38,601 bases of DNA from Rhodothermus sp. (lineage in GTDB: Bacteria > Bacteroidota > Rhodothermia > Rhodothermales > Rhodothermaceae). The stretch covers positions 1 through 38,601 of the forward strand of contig JALSJJ010000242.1 in assembly GCA_026989375.1 (NCBI GenBank). Direction: 5' to 3'. This document shows, in pieces, positions 14,147-20,041 of this stretch; position 1 is the stretch's first letter; each line of letters opens with the position of its first letter. Below the pieces are notes generated by a model, which saw only the letters and a program-made list of their open reading frames with translations, was not told the DNA's origin and searched no databases. Position numbers and translations under genes: made by a program.

Positions 14147-14720
14147 TCCCTCCTCCGGGGAGAGCCTCATAGATACACGCCCTGCACTGTCCCCGGGCTT
14201 GCGCTCGACGTCCACATCAAAGCTGCCAACTACACAAAAAATTTGCCCCCCCTTTGAGGGGGAGCTGTCGCAAAGCGACTGAGGGGGTGTTGGGAAAGAC
14301 GCCAGGGTACGGAGCCGTGGCGAGAAGGGGTGAGTCAGGCCCCTCCCCGGAGGGAGGAGCTCAAGGAAAAAAGGCTTTGCTCGGGATTAGGCGATCGTGC
14401 CGGTGTAAGCGTCATGTCGCTAAACCAGAAAATTTGCTCCCCCTTTGAGGGGGAGCTGGCCCAAAGGGCCTGAGAGGGTGTTTGTTGGGGCAGCGTCGCC
14501 GCCCAAAACAGCTCGGCAACTGGATCGGCGGGTTGGTTGGAGCCCCTCCCCCTGTCCCCCTCCCCAGAGGGGAGGGGGGACCCATCAATACACACCTTGC
14601 GCTGTTTCCGAACTGGTCGCTCACAGCCCACGCAGAAATTGCAACCATACAGAAGAAAAATTTGCTCCTCCTTTGAGGGGGAGCGGCCCGCAGGGCCTGA
14701 GGGAGCGCTGTGTCCGACAG
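14147..14720 (+). repeat. Left modular repeat array (alternating palindromic modules)
   Basis: Two GC-rich modules alternate, separated by variable spacers. Module 2 (CCCTCCCCGGAGGGGAGGG type) lies near 14147-14165, 14339-14361 and 14545-14583. Module 1 lies near 14242-14289, 14431-14480 and 14661-14712. It has hairpin CTCCCCCTTTGAGGGGGAG, then a second hairpin, then TGAGGGGGTG. The second hairpin is GTCGC-AAA-GCGAC in the first copy, GGCCC-AAA-GGGCC in the second and GGCCC-GCA-GGGCC in the third, so pairing is kept while sequence changes. Spacers end in an A-rich run before TTTGC. Apparent frames here are by-products of the repeats. No transposase or tRNA-like feature is attached. Confidence 0.85.
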
Positions 14721-14899
14721 AACGCCAGCATATGGCACAGGAGAGATACAGGCAAACCACCACCTCCCCCACAGAAGCGGAAAAGACCCACAGCAAAACT
14801 TCCCAGCTCTTCGCAAGCGAGCTTTCTGCGGCACCAACGCTCGTTTCAGGAAAGAAAGCCTGCGGAATTGAGGCGGTCGGTATGTTTCTGGAATACCGG

Positions 14900-15415
14900 T
14901 TACAGAATCGAACGAAACGTGGGCGGTAGTACGGACGGATCGTATGTGGTTACTTCTGGCATTTCAGGTCCGTCTTCGGGCATAGTGTCCGTACCACAGT
15001 ATTTTTGAAAAGCCTGCACCAGATCCGATGCAATCGCACTGGCACTTCGGCCTTCGATATGGCGACGTTCCAGTACATATACGGGCTCACCATACTTGAA
15101 CAGCGCAATAAACGGCGATGACGGCGGAATACCGGCCAAGTACTTCCGCGCTTGGGCTGTTGCCTCCACGTCTTGGCCAGCAAATACGGTCACCCAGCGA
15201 TCCGGCTTAGCGACCGGCGCCTGCAGGGCCATGGCCACTGCCGGTCGTGCATTGGCTGCCGCGCAGCCACATACCGAGTTGATAATCAGCAGGAGCGTTC
15301 CTTCTTTTGTCGCCGTGAACGCTGCGTCAACGGCTGCCGCATCTCGCAATTCTTCAACGCCCAGTCGCGTAAGCTCTTCACGCATGGGCCGTACCAGTTC
15401 CTCAGGATAAGGCAT
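14900..15415 (-). CDS. BrxA/BrxB family bacilliredoxin (DUF1094/YphP type)
   Basis: A 171-residue thioredoxin-fold protein with the family's CGC motif (Cys49-Gly-Cys51 in SVCGCAAANARPA). N-terminal MPYPEELVRPMREELTRLGV and the HIEGRSASAIASDLVQAF helix match BrxA/BrxB proteins, which remove bacillithiol from oxidised protein thiols. Usual length is about 145 residues; this one has a ~25-residue C-terminal extension after KYCGTD, rich in Pro, Glu and Asp. Its presence suggests that the organism makes bacillithiol (inference). AAGG precedes the ATG. It follows the YtxH-like gene by 75 bases on the same strand, possibly as one transcript. Confidence 0.9.
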   Translation of the reverse strand: MPYPEELVRPMREELTRLGVEELRDAAAVDAAFTATKEGTLLLIINSVCGCAAANARPAVAMALQAPVAKPDRWVTVFAGQDVEATAQARKYLAGIPPSSPFIALFKYGEPVYVLERRHIEGRSASAIASDLVQAFQKYCGTDTMPEDGPEMPEVTTYDPSVLPPTFRSIL

Positions 15416-15490
15416 CGGTCTGCCTTCTGTTTGGTTTACTGCAACCTCGCTACCGCCTTCGAACGTACGGTACCGTTAAGAGATCCGGTT

Positions 15491-15781
15491 TCAGCCATGA
15501 GGCATACGTGGCAACTCCTGAGCGATGTCCTGGCGCTGCAACTGCCAGGAAGCGGCCTCGCCAGCTTTACGGAACCGCTCACCCAGTACCTTGAGCTGTT
15601 GCTCCAGGTGTTGGAGATGCACGTCTAACTGACGCAGTTGCTCCTCCACACTGTGCAACCGGGCACGCGCTTTGCTTGCCAGTTCCCGACGGGTTTCATG
15701 CCCCGCTTTCGGCGCCATTAACAGACCGGCTACCACGCCGGCGGCAAACGAACAGAGAACCACTGGCCAGGATACACGCAT
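15491..15781 (-). CDS. YtxH-like small membrane protein
   Basis: A 96-residue protein. One N-terminal membrane helix (WPVVLCSFAAGVVAGLLMA) is followed by PKAGHETRREL, the glycine/lysine-rich turn typical of YtxH proteins. A helical, charged tail (HSVEEQLRQLDVHLQHLEQQ) likely forms a coiled coil. The function of the family is poorly known, with links to general stress. The ATG at 15781 is chosen because the conserved core begins just after it; the upstream extension of the frame is low-complexity and overlaps the divergent gene. No clear ribosome site is visible. It is divergent from the NlpC/P60 gene. Confidence 0.75.
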   Translation of the reverse strand: MRVSWPVVLCSFAAGVVAGLLMAPKAGHETRRELASKARARLHSVEEQLRQLDVHLQHLEQQLKVLGERFRKAGEAASWQLQRQDIAQELPRMPHG

Positions 15782-15809
15782 GATTGGATCGATTTCGATT
15801 TCACAAGCA

Positions 15810-16346
15810 ATGCTATCAGTTATACGAGCTGCTGGCCTTCGGTTCCACGGGTTACTGATAGGCTGGCTGGTGTTGGCCGGTTGCCGCACAACCGCTCCTC
15901 TACCTGCTTCGCCGTCAACCATGACCGACGTGCGCGAACGCCTGCTGGCCGAGCTGGCCTACTGGCAAGGTACACCGCATCAATGGGGAGGCCTCGACGA
16001 ACGGGGTATCGACTGTTCAGGCCTGGTCGTCCGCGTCTATCAGAATGCCTTTGGCCTTACCCTGCCTCGCACCACTGAAGCCCAGGTGCAACTGGGACAC
16101 CCCATCTCGCAGCAGGAATTACAGGCAGGCGACCTTGTATTCTTTCGTCTGGATCGTAAAAATCGCCATGTAGGAATCTATCTGGGAGAGGGACGCTTTC
16201 TGCATGCCGGCAGCTCCACCGGGGTAACCGTCTCACAGCTCGACGATCCTTACTGGCAGCGTCACTACTGGACGGCTCGGCGGATCCTGGATCTGGAGGA
16301 TGACGCTTCGCCAGTCCATATCTCCTCCCCAACAATTGGATGGTAG
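15810..16346 (+). CDS. NlpC/P60 family lipoprotein, cell-wall endopeptidase
   Basis: A 178-residue protein with a lipoprotein signal: a hydrophobic core ending in the lipobox LAGC (Cys25). The NlpC/P60 domain has catalytic Cys69 in GIDCSGLVVRVYQ, His120 in NRHVGIY and a third polar position near His132 (FLHAG), as in Spr/MepS and YafL-type peptidoglycan hydrolases. These cut peptide stems between D-Glu and DAP or cross-links. The ATG at 15810 gives a normal signal length. An ATG at 15780 is possible but overlaps the divergent YtxH start codon. No strong ribosome site is seen. It is likely anchored in the outer membrane facing the wall. Confidence 0.88.
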   Translation: MLSVIRAAGLRFHGLLIGWLVLAGCRTTAPLPASPSTMTDVRERLLAELAYWQGTPHQWGGLDERGIDCSGLVVRVYQNAFGLTLPRTTEAQVQLGHPISQQELQAGDLVFFRLDRKNRHVGIYLGEGRFLHAGSSTGVTVSQLDDPYWQRHYWTARRILDLEDDASPVHISSPTIGW

Positions 16347-16477
16347 ACGGATCTCTCCACAATTACAGGCGTTAGTGAGATGACCCACTGCCCCTTCCAG
16401 ATCGCCGCAGCCGCAAGGCCGTGGCGTTCTCTTTTTCTGTACCAATACAGTGGACCCTAAAAATAGCCGCGGTATCT

Positions 16478-16957
16478 ATGCAGGATCCGAAACCCGTTTA
16501 TTTAACTAAGGAAGCACTCCAGAAACTGAAGGAGGAACTCCACGAGCTCAAAACCAAAGAGCGCGCACGCATTGCCCGGGCTATCGCCGAAGCTCGGGCA
16601 CATGGCGACCTGTCTGAAAACGCCGAATACGACGCCGCCAAAGAAGCCCAAGGACGTCTGGAGGCTCGTATTGCACAGATTGAGCAAACCATCGCCAACG
16701 CCCGGATTGTTGACGAAAACAAAATCGACACCAGCAAAGCTTACATTCTGTCAAAAGTGCGTGTCAAGAATCTGCAAACAGGTACTGAGCAGGTCTTTAC
16801 CCTGGTTTCTCCACAGGAGGTCGATCTGAATGAAGGCAAGATTTCGGTGAACAGTCCCATTGGTAAGGGACTGTTGGGGCGTTCCGTGGGTGATGTCGTA
16901 GAAATCAAGGTTCCGGCCGGCAAGGTCAAACTGCAAATCCTGGAAATTTCGCGCTGA
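16478..16957 (+). CDS. greA: Transcription elongation factor GreA
   Basis: A 159-residue protein, nearly the same length as E. coli GreA (158). The N-terminal coiled coil carries the tip motif GDLSENAEYDAAKE (about residues 42-55), whose acidic residues reach into the RNA polymerase secondary channel to trigger transcript cleavage in backtracked complexes. The C-terminal FKBP-like domain includes SVNSPIGKGLLGRSVGDVVEIKVPAG. The ATG at 16478 (MQDPKPVYLTKEALQKLKEEL) fits the family start; an upstream ATG at 16421 adds 19 unrelated residues. It is followed by a strong terminator at 17074. Confidence 0.97.
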   Translation: MQDPKPVYLTKEALQKLKEELHELKTKERARIARAIAEARAHGDLSENAEYDAAKEAQGRLEARIAQIEQTIANARIVDENKIDTSKAYILSKVRVKNLQTGTEQVFTLVSPQEVDLNEGKISVNSPIGKGLLGRSVGDVVEIKVPAGKVKLQILEISR

Positions 16958-17073
16958 GTAATGCCGTCCACACCTGTGTTTATTCCTGAGTCGTAAGACG
17001 TAAAACAATACCATGCGGGCTGTGGAGGGGCTGGAATCTATCGCTTGGGAGTACATCGACCATAGCATACTGT

Positions 17074-17115
17074 AAGCCTTCGGTATCCTTGCGACCGAAG
17101 GCTTGTCTTGTTTTT
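17074..17115 (+). terminator. Rho-independent terminator downstream of greA
   Basis: A perfect 11-base stem (AAGCCTTCGGT with ACCGAAGGCTT) around a 9-base loop is followed by GTCTTGTTTTT. It stands about 115 bases past the greA stop. Confidence 0.85.
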
Positions 17116-17458
17116 ATGGGCGCGTAAGTGGTCACACAGAAAGCTGTCGCCTCAGGTCCGGTGCAGGCAACCGGCACCAGTACTTATTGGAACACACTAC
17201 TCAACGGCTAAAGCTTACCTGCAGGCTTGTTTTTTTACCGAGGACGTGGTCAGTATCCGACTGCCACATCAAGGTTGTGCGACCATACCCCTCATTGCTG
17301 CACGGTCCCGAGTGCTGGTGCTATGACAGGGAATCAACCCCTCAACCCCTATGGGTCCGCTTCCCCTCAAATGGGGAGCAAACTTTTTGTGTAATTGGCA
17401 GCTTTGATGTGGACGTTGAGCAGGCTCGGGAACAGCGCAAGGTGTGTATTGATGTGTC

Positions 17459-17603
17459 CCCCCTCCCCTCCGGGGAGGGGGACAGGGGGGGGGGCCTGAC
17501 TCAACCCTTATCGCCTTTGCTCTGTAAGCTGGCGCTCTGTTCGGAATAGAGCACCCCCTCAGTCGCTTTGCGACAGCTCCCCCTCAAAGGGGGAGCAAAT
17601 TTT
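17459..17603 (-). repeat. 145-bp direct repeat, copy A
   Basis: Identical to 17730-17874 except for one base (G at 17490 against A at 17761). It spans module 2, one full spacer and module 1 of the array. Near-identity implies a recent duplication or gene conversion. Confidence 0.93.
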
Positions 17604-17729
17604 TTGAATTTTACAGCAGTGCCTGTACCAACACCACCCATTTCCCAAACGCCGATGCTGACACCGGCTTTCAAGTTCGGAAAAGGCAAATCAATCCTAA
17701 GGCCCAAGCAAGACCTTCTTCTTTGAGTT

Positions 17730-17874
17730 CCCCCTCCCCTCCGGGGAGGGGGACAGGGGGAGGGGCCTGACTCAACCCTTATCGCCTTTGCTCTGTAAGC
17801 TGGCGCTCTGTTCGGAATAGAGCACCCCCTCAGTCGCTTTGCGACAGCTCCCCCTCAAAGGGGGAGCAAATTTT
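17730..17874 (-). repeat. 145-bp direct repeat, copy B
   Basis: Second copy of the element at 17459-17603, offset by exactly 271 bases, with a single mismatch. The 126 bases between the copies are a different spacer. Confidence 0.93.
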
Positions 17875-17965
17875 CTGGTTTAGCGACATGACGCTTCCAT
17901 CAGCACGATCGCCTCATCCTGGGCAAAGCCTTCTTTCATTGGCTCTCTCCTCCGGGGAGGGGGCA

Positions 17966-18410
17966 TTCCACCCACCAGCCCCCTCGTTCCAGGCACTGGT
18001 GCTCCGCACGCAATAAATCACCTATTCAGACACTCCGCCAGCACTCCCTGCAAGCGGAAGCAGCGTTTCGGAGTACTGTTACTTTGTCAGCGTAACTGTC
18101 GTCTCACGTACGGCCTCTGTCCGGCAGGTCTCCTCCTGTAGCTTGACACAGCCATCCGATGTAAACAGCGACTTTTCGCCCACCGCATCCTCCCTTCTCA
18201 GAGTCAGGACGCTCTTCCTGACCGTTGGTGCTACCCCTTCAGACACCAGCGCTCCACCAGTACATTATGTTTTCCCCTTCCAGGGTCTACCCATTGCTGC
18301 TATTTGCTTATTTTATGCTGCCAGAGCTATGAGACCGACCTGCTGTCTGCTACCTATCGCCAACATTCGTTCCAGGTGCGGTCAGGTCATACACTGAAAA
18401 TTAAAAAAAT
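17966..18410. other. Non-coding stretch before the threonine aldolase gene
   Basis: No supported gene. On the minus strand a short frame (about 18079-18263) ends in a protein-like VRETTVTLTK tail but has no good start; it may be a remnant or chance. The last ~20 bases before 18411 are A-rich (GAAAATTAAAAAAAT), an SD-less leader of the kind common in Bacteroidota. Confidence 0.4.
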
Positions 18411-19564: not shown

Positions 19565-20041
19565 GCCTCCTCTCTCTGCCCTCTCCCCCAAGGACAAAGA
19601 AGATGCCAGGAAAAGGCCCCGCTATGATCAATTGGATTGACGACATGGACCGTGTTAACCACAAAACCGGTTCCCCTTCCTGGAGGAGCTGTCCGAAAGA
19701 CAGCAGGGGGTTGTACGGAGGTCCATACGGTGGTCAGAAAAAGCATGGCGATTGGGGTGGGAGGAGTGGTCCACCTCTCCAGAGAGAAGGACTTCTGAGA
19801 AGCGGGTTGGCCGGCTGTCAGGTGTATGGGATGGATGTTGCTATGAAAGCCCAATTTCTTTTGCTGCCCCTGGCAGGGGAAGCTGGCCCGAAGGGCCTGA
19901 AGGGGTGCCAGCCAGACCACCAACGTCTCGAACGCCAACGCCCGGAAGTTTCCCTGCTCGGAGACGAAGAGGGACACAAAATGGACGAGATCCGCCTCAT
20001 GAACTTCGTCGCCCTGCTTCCCTCCCCGGAAGGAAGGGGGT
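19565..20041 (+). repeat. Third modular repeat array (diverged)
   Basis: The 696-base gap between the convergent ltaE and FAH-family genes holds diverged copies of the same modules. Module 1 is near 19672-19712 (second hairpin CTGTC-CGAAA-GACAG) and 19853-19906 (GGCCC-GAA-GGGCC). Module 2-like stretches are near 19565-19590, 19776-19790 and 20019-20041 (CCCTCCCCGGAAGGAAGGGG). The order alternates as in the other arrays. No gene is supported between 19446 and 20141. Confidence 0.65.

Follow-up and report, generated by a model that had tools for sequence, protein, structure and literature searches.

The window, by which is meant the whole analysed stretch of 38,601 nucleotides from the heat-loving bacterium Rhodothermus sp., harbours two arrays of short GC-rich palindromes lying in mutually inverted orientation. 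The left and right arrays bound a disulphide-isomerase-family gene, which is presumably brxB-like, a YtxH-like gene, an NlpC/P60 gene and greA. The YtxH-like (15491-15922, minus strand) and NlpC/P60 (15672-16346, plus strand) open reading frames, which face in opposite directions, have 251 bp in common, and therefore at least one of the two starts has probably been placed too far out. An Rfam scan of the window returned one tRNA and nothing else. The window's own genome, an assembly of 257 contigs, is denoted G000 and was compared with six other Rhodothermus genomes, G001-G006. The features are as follows:

14238-14703, minus strand: left array, inverted relative to the right array and with related blocks in common (repeat and profile searches)
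14238-14288, 14429-14479, 14544-14581 and 14657-14703, minus strand: left-array modules B, B, A and B, respectively (profile matches)
14663-17593, no strand assigned: segment reversed in G004 (gene order and alignment)
17338-17386, plus strand: palindrome B, first module of the right array (profile match)
17456-17492, plus strand: palindrome A of copy 1, holding the mismatch at 17490 (profile match)
17459-17603, plus strand: first A-inner-B copy (script comparison)
17553-17603, plus strand: palindrome B of copy 1, with mini-hairpin, strong hairpin and AAATTTT, terminator-like (profile match, terminator scan)
17604-17726, plus strand: outer spacer separating the copies, 123 bp, unlike other outer spacers (spacer comparison)
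17727-17764, plus strand: palindrome A of copy 2 (profile match)
17730-17874, plus strand: second A-inner-B copy (script comparison)
17824-17874, plus strand: palindrome B of copy 2 (profile match)
17944-17968, plus strand: degenerate A-like terminus of the right array, recognized by eye and lacking a profile match (inverted-repeat arm at 17945-17968)
19671-19906, minus strand: two more B-like modules past the threonine aldolase gene, at 19671-19700 (weak) and 19859-19906 (profile matches)

The arrays follow a common plan in which palindromes A (∼38 bp) and B (∼51 bp) alternate, separated by spacers of mostly 53-75 bp. Palindrome A combines one C-rich and one G-rich stem with a further G-rich tail; in palindrome B a mini-hairpin precedes a strong hairpin, after which comes AAATTTT. 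Because A shares its plan with reverse-complemented B, the two are inverted relatives of each other. Profile searches, run iteratively over the window and 33 further G000 regions and giving counts that are not whole-genome totals, recovered 177 modules (75 A and 102 B), including 37 arrays of at least two modules; the G000 array regions were drawn from at least 100 places, and 40 of the 69 first-look candidates were scored. Within arrays of at least three modules, 164 of 166 modules occupy the same strand and A and B alternate at 122 of 133 neighbouring steps. Spacer families recur across different arrays and spacer length ranges from 45 to 186 bp, which, together with the presence of two kinds of repeat, rules out a CRISPR array. 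The A-inner-B block is more stable than its shuffles (z of -3.8 as DNA and of -4.3 and -4.4 as RNA on the two strands), and its predicted fold comprises hairpin A, a stem that closes the tail of A to the head of B, and two hairpins in B.

The right array contains the 145-bp direct duplication with one mismatch to which the earlier note had drawn attention. A script comparison reproduces it: 17459-17603 and 17730-17874 are identical at 144 of 145 positions with an offset of 271, and the spacers flanking and separating the two copies do differ, as had also been claimed. The sole mismatch, G17490 versus A17761, falls in the G-rich tail of palindrome A. Exact extension of the edges ends at 17459 and 17603, and a repeat search returned a wider pair, 17453-17606 and 17724-17877, at 97%. 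The copied block is exactly one A-inner-B unit, its limits coinciding with the outer edges of A and B. Among all same-array A-inner-B pairs this is the closest, at 98.6% over 148 bp. The identity of the copies exceeds what relatedness among A-inner-B units gives, because the mean identity of such units is 73.5% for different-array pairs (1731 pairs) and 74.5% for same-array pairs (39 pairs).

The comparison of units, restricted to those with a spacer shorter than 90 bp, places the duplication in a wider pattern. A-inner-B units at least 95% alike account for 2 of 39 same-array pairs and 0 of 1731 different-array pairs (60 units), and the corresponding figures for B-outer-A units are 1 of 25 and 0 of 1353. 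With both kinds pooled, 3 of 64 same-array pairs and none of 3084 different-array pairs reach this level. The earlier note had inferred very recent copying or conversion and elements that might be active or repeatedly homogenized: these whole near-identical units speak for recent copying or homogenization, and the notion that transposing elements produced this pair fares worse: in G000 no Y1/RAYT transposase was found, and a lone, weak IS630-family match is interrupted by a stop codon. At a threshold of at least 70 bp and at least 95% identity, 13 near-identical blocks were found including the window pair, seven within arrays and six between arrays, and both kinds of spacer are represented. 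In 10 of the 13 both ends lie in a module or no more than 16 bp from one in at least one copy; the other three end 28-31 bp out into a spacer. The six between-array blocks mean that copying is not purely local; in one of these pairs both copies sit at contig ends, and the assembler may have divided a single place into two. Copies of whole units were observed exclusively inside arrays, and shorter exchange may take place between arrays.

The 145-bp duplication is thus likely to be the product of recent copying by recombination inside a mosaic, BIME-like array of A and B. A plain duplication of a whole tandem period would have taken an outer spacer along, and in the window none was copied; this would favour a process with A and B as its anchors, be it conversion, unequal exchange or template switching, although conversion, unequal exchange and insertion of a doublet are all compatible with the data. 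According to such a scheme the palindromes would act as short homology anchors and, being foldable, might in addition stall replication. Events between copies of A and B, whether gene conversion, unequal exchange or template switching, would then duplicate and shuffle spacer segments, mostly inside one array and sometimes between arrays, and the DNA between inverted arrays would occasionally be flipped. Pending long reads, the pair looks like the genuine outcome of recombination of a fairly ordinary kind, set in a mosaic array that is itself unusual.

A flip of this kind may have occurred at the same locus. The gene segment between the arrays has the order of the window in G001, G002, G003, G005 and G006 and is reversed in G004, where, by alignment, one breakpoint of the inversion falls in 14181-14663 and the other in 17593-18027, each inside an array or at its margin. 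No arrays were detected at the window's two sites in G001, G002, G003, G005 and G006, and for the last four the gaps themselves were also read. These observations suggest the arrival of the arrays on the branch of G000 and G004, followed by array-to-array recombination in G004, and are also compatible with other histories. A PF00912 transglycosylase-family gene lies between greA and the threonine aldolase gene in G002 (L083:3972-4643, minus strand), and the same stretch is recognizable by eye in G005 (L084). The gap between greA and the aldolase gene is too short for such a gene in G006 and G003, and none was seen there in the window or G004; in the G001 stretch the threonine aldolase gene was not found.

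Modules A and B are also found in a miniature inverted-repeat element (MITE) of ∼300 bp. This element has a B-outer-A core, inverted ends of 26 bp and a TA target duplication, and it is as B-outer-A inside inverted ends, not as A-inner-B, that it occurs as a solitary copy in G006, G005 and G002. Several elements of G005 and G006 have paired inverted ends, a pattern for which the reversed control gave 0. Matches to the ends with up to three mismatches number 38 in G006, 18 in G002, 14 in G005, one each in G000 and G004, and none in G001 and G003; reversed ends gave 0 in all seven Rhodothermus genomes. Both G005 elements tested, at loci L133 and L138, have an empty site in G002 with a 2-bp TA overlap, the signature of target duplication. 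The L133 element is also absent from G006, G003, G000 and G004, with less exact junctions, and the L138 element from G003, G000 and G004, G006 being without a usable flank for this comparison. Elements L141, L139, L150 and L145 of G005 and G002 display the same left inverted end, and where A and B would stand they contain different palindromes, of the GTAGGGGCGG type; the ends may therefore carry interchangeable cores. Some of the end matches counted in G002 and G005 come from elements with such different inner palindromes. Three B elements lie 1.87 and 1.83 kb apart in L089 (G002:C1:1029500-1036000), a spacing that suggests a larger tandem repeat in R. marinus.

Mobilization of the MITE by an IS630-type transposase is rather probable. 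An IS630-family element on an R. marinus plasmid (L189), which encodes DDE_3 and HTH domains, has inward-facing ends that match those of the MITE at 19 of 26 and 18 of 26 positions; no exact partner insertion sequence was found. None of 300 simulated sequences contained an end match with up to eight mismatches. Matches at eight mismatches did turn up in seven other fetched loci, corresponding to four distinct places, all of which bear elements. Given this background a single match is weak evidence, and the pair of ends in L189 carries more weight than either end. MITE ends were absent from the IS630 matches L183, L184, L185, L186, L187 and L188, the best in L188 having 11 mismatches. The single IS630-family match in G000 is weak and contains an internal stop codon. 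Plausibly, the MITE is an IS630-type passenger that is perhaps no longer mobile in G000.

Whether the arrays descend from the MITE is a close call: such a descent is conceivable, with the balance tilting slightly towards doubt. At the locus L049/L137 a distance of 82 bp separates a degenerate MITE end from an array of seven modules spanning ∼660 bp in G000, and between the same aligned flanks G004 has 27 bp, so that the number of modules varies at an orthologous place, a BOX-like property seen at this one locus. A search of the G000 array regions for MITE ends with up to eight mismatches gave four matches, one beside an array and three at distances of 446-838 bp, and reversed ends gave 0. Most G000 arrays have no MITE end nearby, the genome containing one clear end with up to three mismatches, and the window has no match to the ends with up to eight mismatches around its arrays. 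When the outer spacers of the arrays were set against that of the MITE, 1 of 53 G000 spacers scored above the best shuffle. The arrays would, on the proposed scheme, have been founded at MITE insertions, the putative IS630-type transposase being the mover, and would have expanded afterwards.

Other explanations of the duplication deserve consideration. Short reads might have led the assembler to place one A-inner-B copy twice, or to misjoin the order of outer spacers. The fragmentation of G000 lends some credence to this, as 21 of the 37 arrays are located within 200 bp of a contig end, for which reason many breaks in the assembly are probably due to arrays, and 145 bp is near a common read length. 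Nevertheless, the copies differ at one base, their flanks are different on both sides, and similar within-array blocks with other offsets exist in other contigs, all of which renders an artefact unlikely. A further alternative regards the A-inner-B doublet itself as a REPIN-like mobile unit, a second copy of which a transposase acting on hairpins placed next to the first. The copied block is indeed exactly one inverted palindrome pair that folds as a unit, and REPINs are doublets of inverted REPs (PMC3116915). However, PF01797, the Y1/RAYT type of transposase (Y1_Tnp), gave no match in G000 with controls working, and across the six genus mates it gave one marginal match, in G001, which itself has no element match, and none in the other five. 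Moreover, B-outer-A blocks were copied too, and the solitary element has that same arrangement. Since no Y1_Tnp was found in G000 and both kinds of spacer were copied, a RAYT-driven REPIN is set aside as the main reading, and the insertion of a mobile doublet is judged quite unlikely.

Selection could instead preserve the arrays as RNA structures with a regulatory or terminator function, with copying maintaining their uniformity. B does resemble an intrinsic terminator, and four terminator-like matches occur in 17300-18050 as opposed to a shuffle mean of 1.1. Compensatory changes are also evident: among 52 distinct B modules, out of 54 chosen by hand and mostly scoring at least 40 bits, 39 cells are changed on both sides, 38 of them in the mini-hairpin, and 0 of 500 shuffles reach 39. 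Compensatory change is, however, also expected in copies derived from structured mobile sources, and no arrays were detected at the corresponding sites in five other genomes of the genus. Nor is there any orientation bias: by a rough longest-ORF rule the upstream gene is on the same strand in 15 cases and on the opposite strand in 14, and the downstream gene in 9 and 14, respectively. This lack of bias speaks against termination as what explains the arrangement, and preservation by selection is a very improbable account as a whole. Recombinational copying within the array is retained as the preferred reading of the duplication.

The arrays can be set beside several known repeat systems. BIMEs consist of regularly spaced REPs in alternating orientations (PMC2817692), and REPs have a tag tetranucleotide of the GTAG or CGTC superfamilies (PMC3733652). 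The Rhodothermus arrays resemble BIMEs in being dispersed, intergenic and regularly spaced, with palindromes of 20-60 bp in alternating orientation and with spacer families. They differ in that the palindromes are of two kinds, one of 38 bp and the other of 51 bp, that spacers measure ∼65 bp, that no RAYT was found, and that a related MITE exists whose inverted ends are long and which duplicates a TA target. The REPINs of Pseudomonas fluorescens SBW25 offer a parallel as inverted palindrome pairs that fold as a unit and form tandem clusters, and a pair of almost identical arrays facing opposite ways is reported from that strain; these REPINs are RAYT-associated (PMC3116915), whereas in G000 no RAYT was found and both kinds of spacer were copied. 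The BOX elements of Streptococcus pneumoniae are modular, with an inner boxB number that varies between strains and with IS-like ends, and the ends of RUP resemble IS630-Spn1 (both PMC3049150). Unlike in BOX, the inner repeats of the Rhodothermus arrays are two inverted GC-rich palindromes with changing spacers, and most arrays have lost recognizable ends. The Rhodothermus MITE shares with RUP, Correia elements and ERIC a short, non-coding structure with inverted ends, and differs from all three in a GC-rich core containing two REP-like palindromes. RUP, Correia elements and ERIC likewise duplicate a TA target. The best reading of the Rhodothermus arrays is that of a BIME/BOX-like mosaic which has modules in common with a TA-type MITE and is reshuffled by recombination. 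Among the open-access papers listed by literature searches, none was seen to describe this element.

A different likeness links the palindromes to GC-rich triplex motifs. The C-rich stem, G-rich stem and second G-rich tail of A recall the TMECO motif (PMC4666352); by eye, A is one position off the exact pattern, and B exceeds the length permitted there for the second loop. A purine-motif triplex rule (a C-stem, its complementary G-stem and a mirror G-stem, with stems of at least 8 and loops of 1-6) fits 52 of 65 A modules and gave 0 in 20 rounds of shuffling. At a stem of at least 7 a direct-repeat control fits A as often as the mirror rule, in 56 and 54 of 65 modules, respectively. B fits with loops of 8-22, longer than that of the published rule, in 74 of 93 modules by the mirror and 55 of 93 by the direct version. 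The likeness of A and B to triplex motifs is real in composition, and any triplex formed by them is putative.

The distribution of these palindromes extends, in part, beyond the genus. A search with a 154-bp unit gave matches in 9 of 40 genomes: 6 of the 7 of the genus, including G000, and 3 of 33 others with one or two weak matches. A looser B pattern is present in 5 of 395 genomes of the phylum, namely G000, G002, G004, G005 and G297. The last of these belongs to another class of the same phylum, and its loci L190 and L195 contain eight exact B-pattern matches among other short repeats. In a contig collection that perhaps does not include G000 or close records, the B pattern occurs in three stretches from two Clostridia metagenome-assembled genomes. 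A 321-bp query from Clostridia matches the genome it comes from, G041, at 67 or more places and G040 at 51 or more; a B-like segment of ∼50 bp recurs in both genomes, and many of the G041 matches are to other repeats within the query. Three Y1_Tnp matches were found in G040 and none in G041.

A broader proposal, advanced tentatively, is that GC-rich palindromes of the triplex type, with close forms in some Clostridia and in Rhodothermus, have been carried between Rhodothermus sites by IS630-type MITEs, have grown into mosaic arrays and have then become standing recombination sites at which gene blocks are copied, shuffled and flipped between species. GC-rich hairpin motifs capable of triplex formation are abundant in many bacteria and have been linked to unstable loci, and no mobility functions around them are reported (PMC4666352). 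Rhodothermus joins similar palindromes in a TA-type MITE with empty sites, in recently copied arrays and in arrays that bracket an inversion, which renders spread, amplification and rearrangement testable in a single genus, one that includes the cultivable R. marinus. If true, the proposal would provide a missing link between triplex-type motifs, mobility and genome instability.
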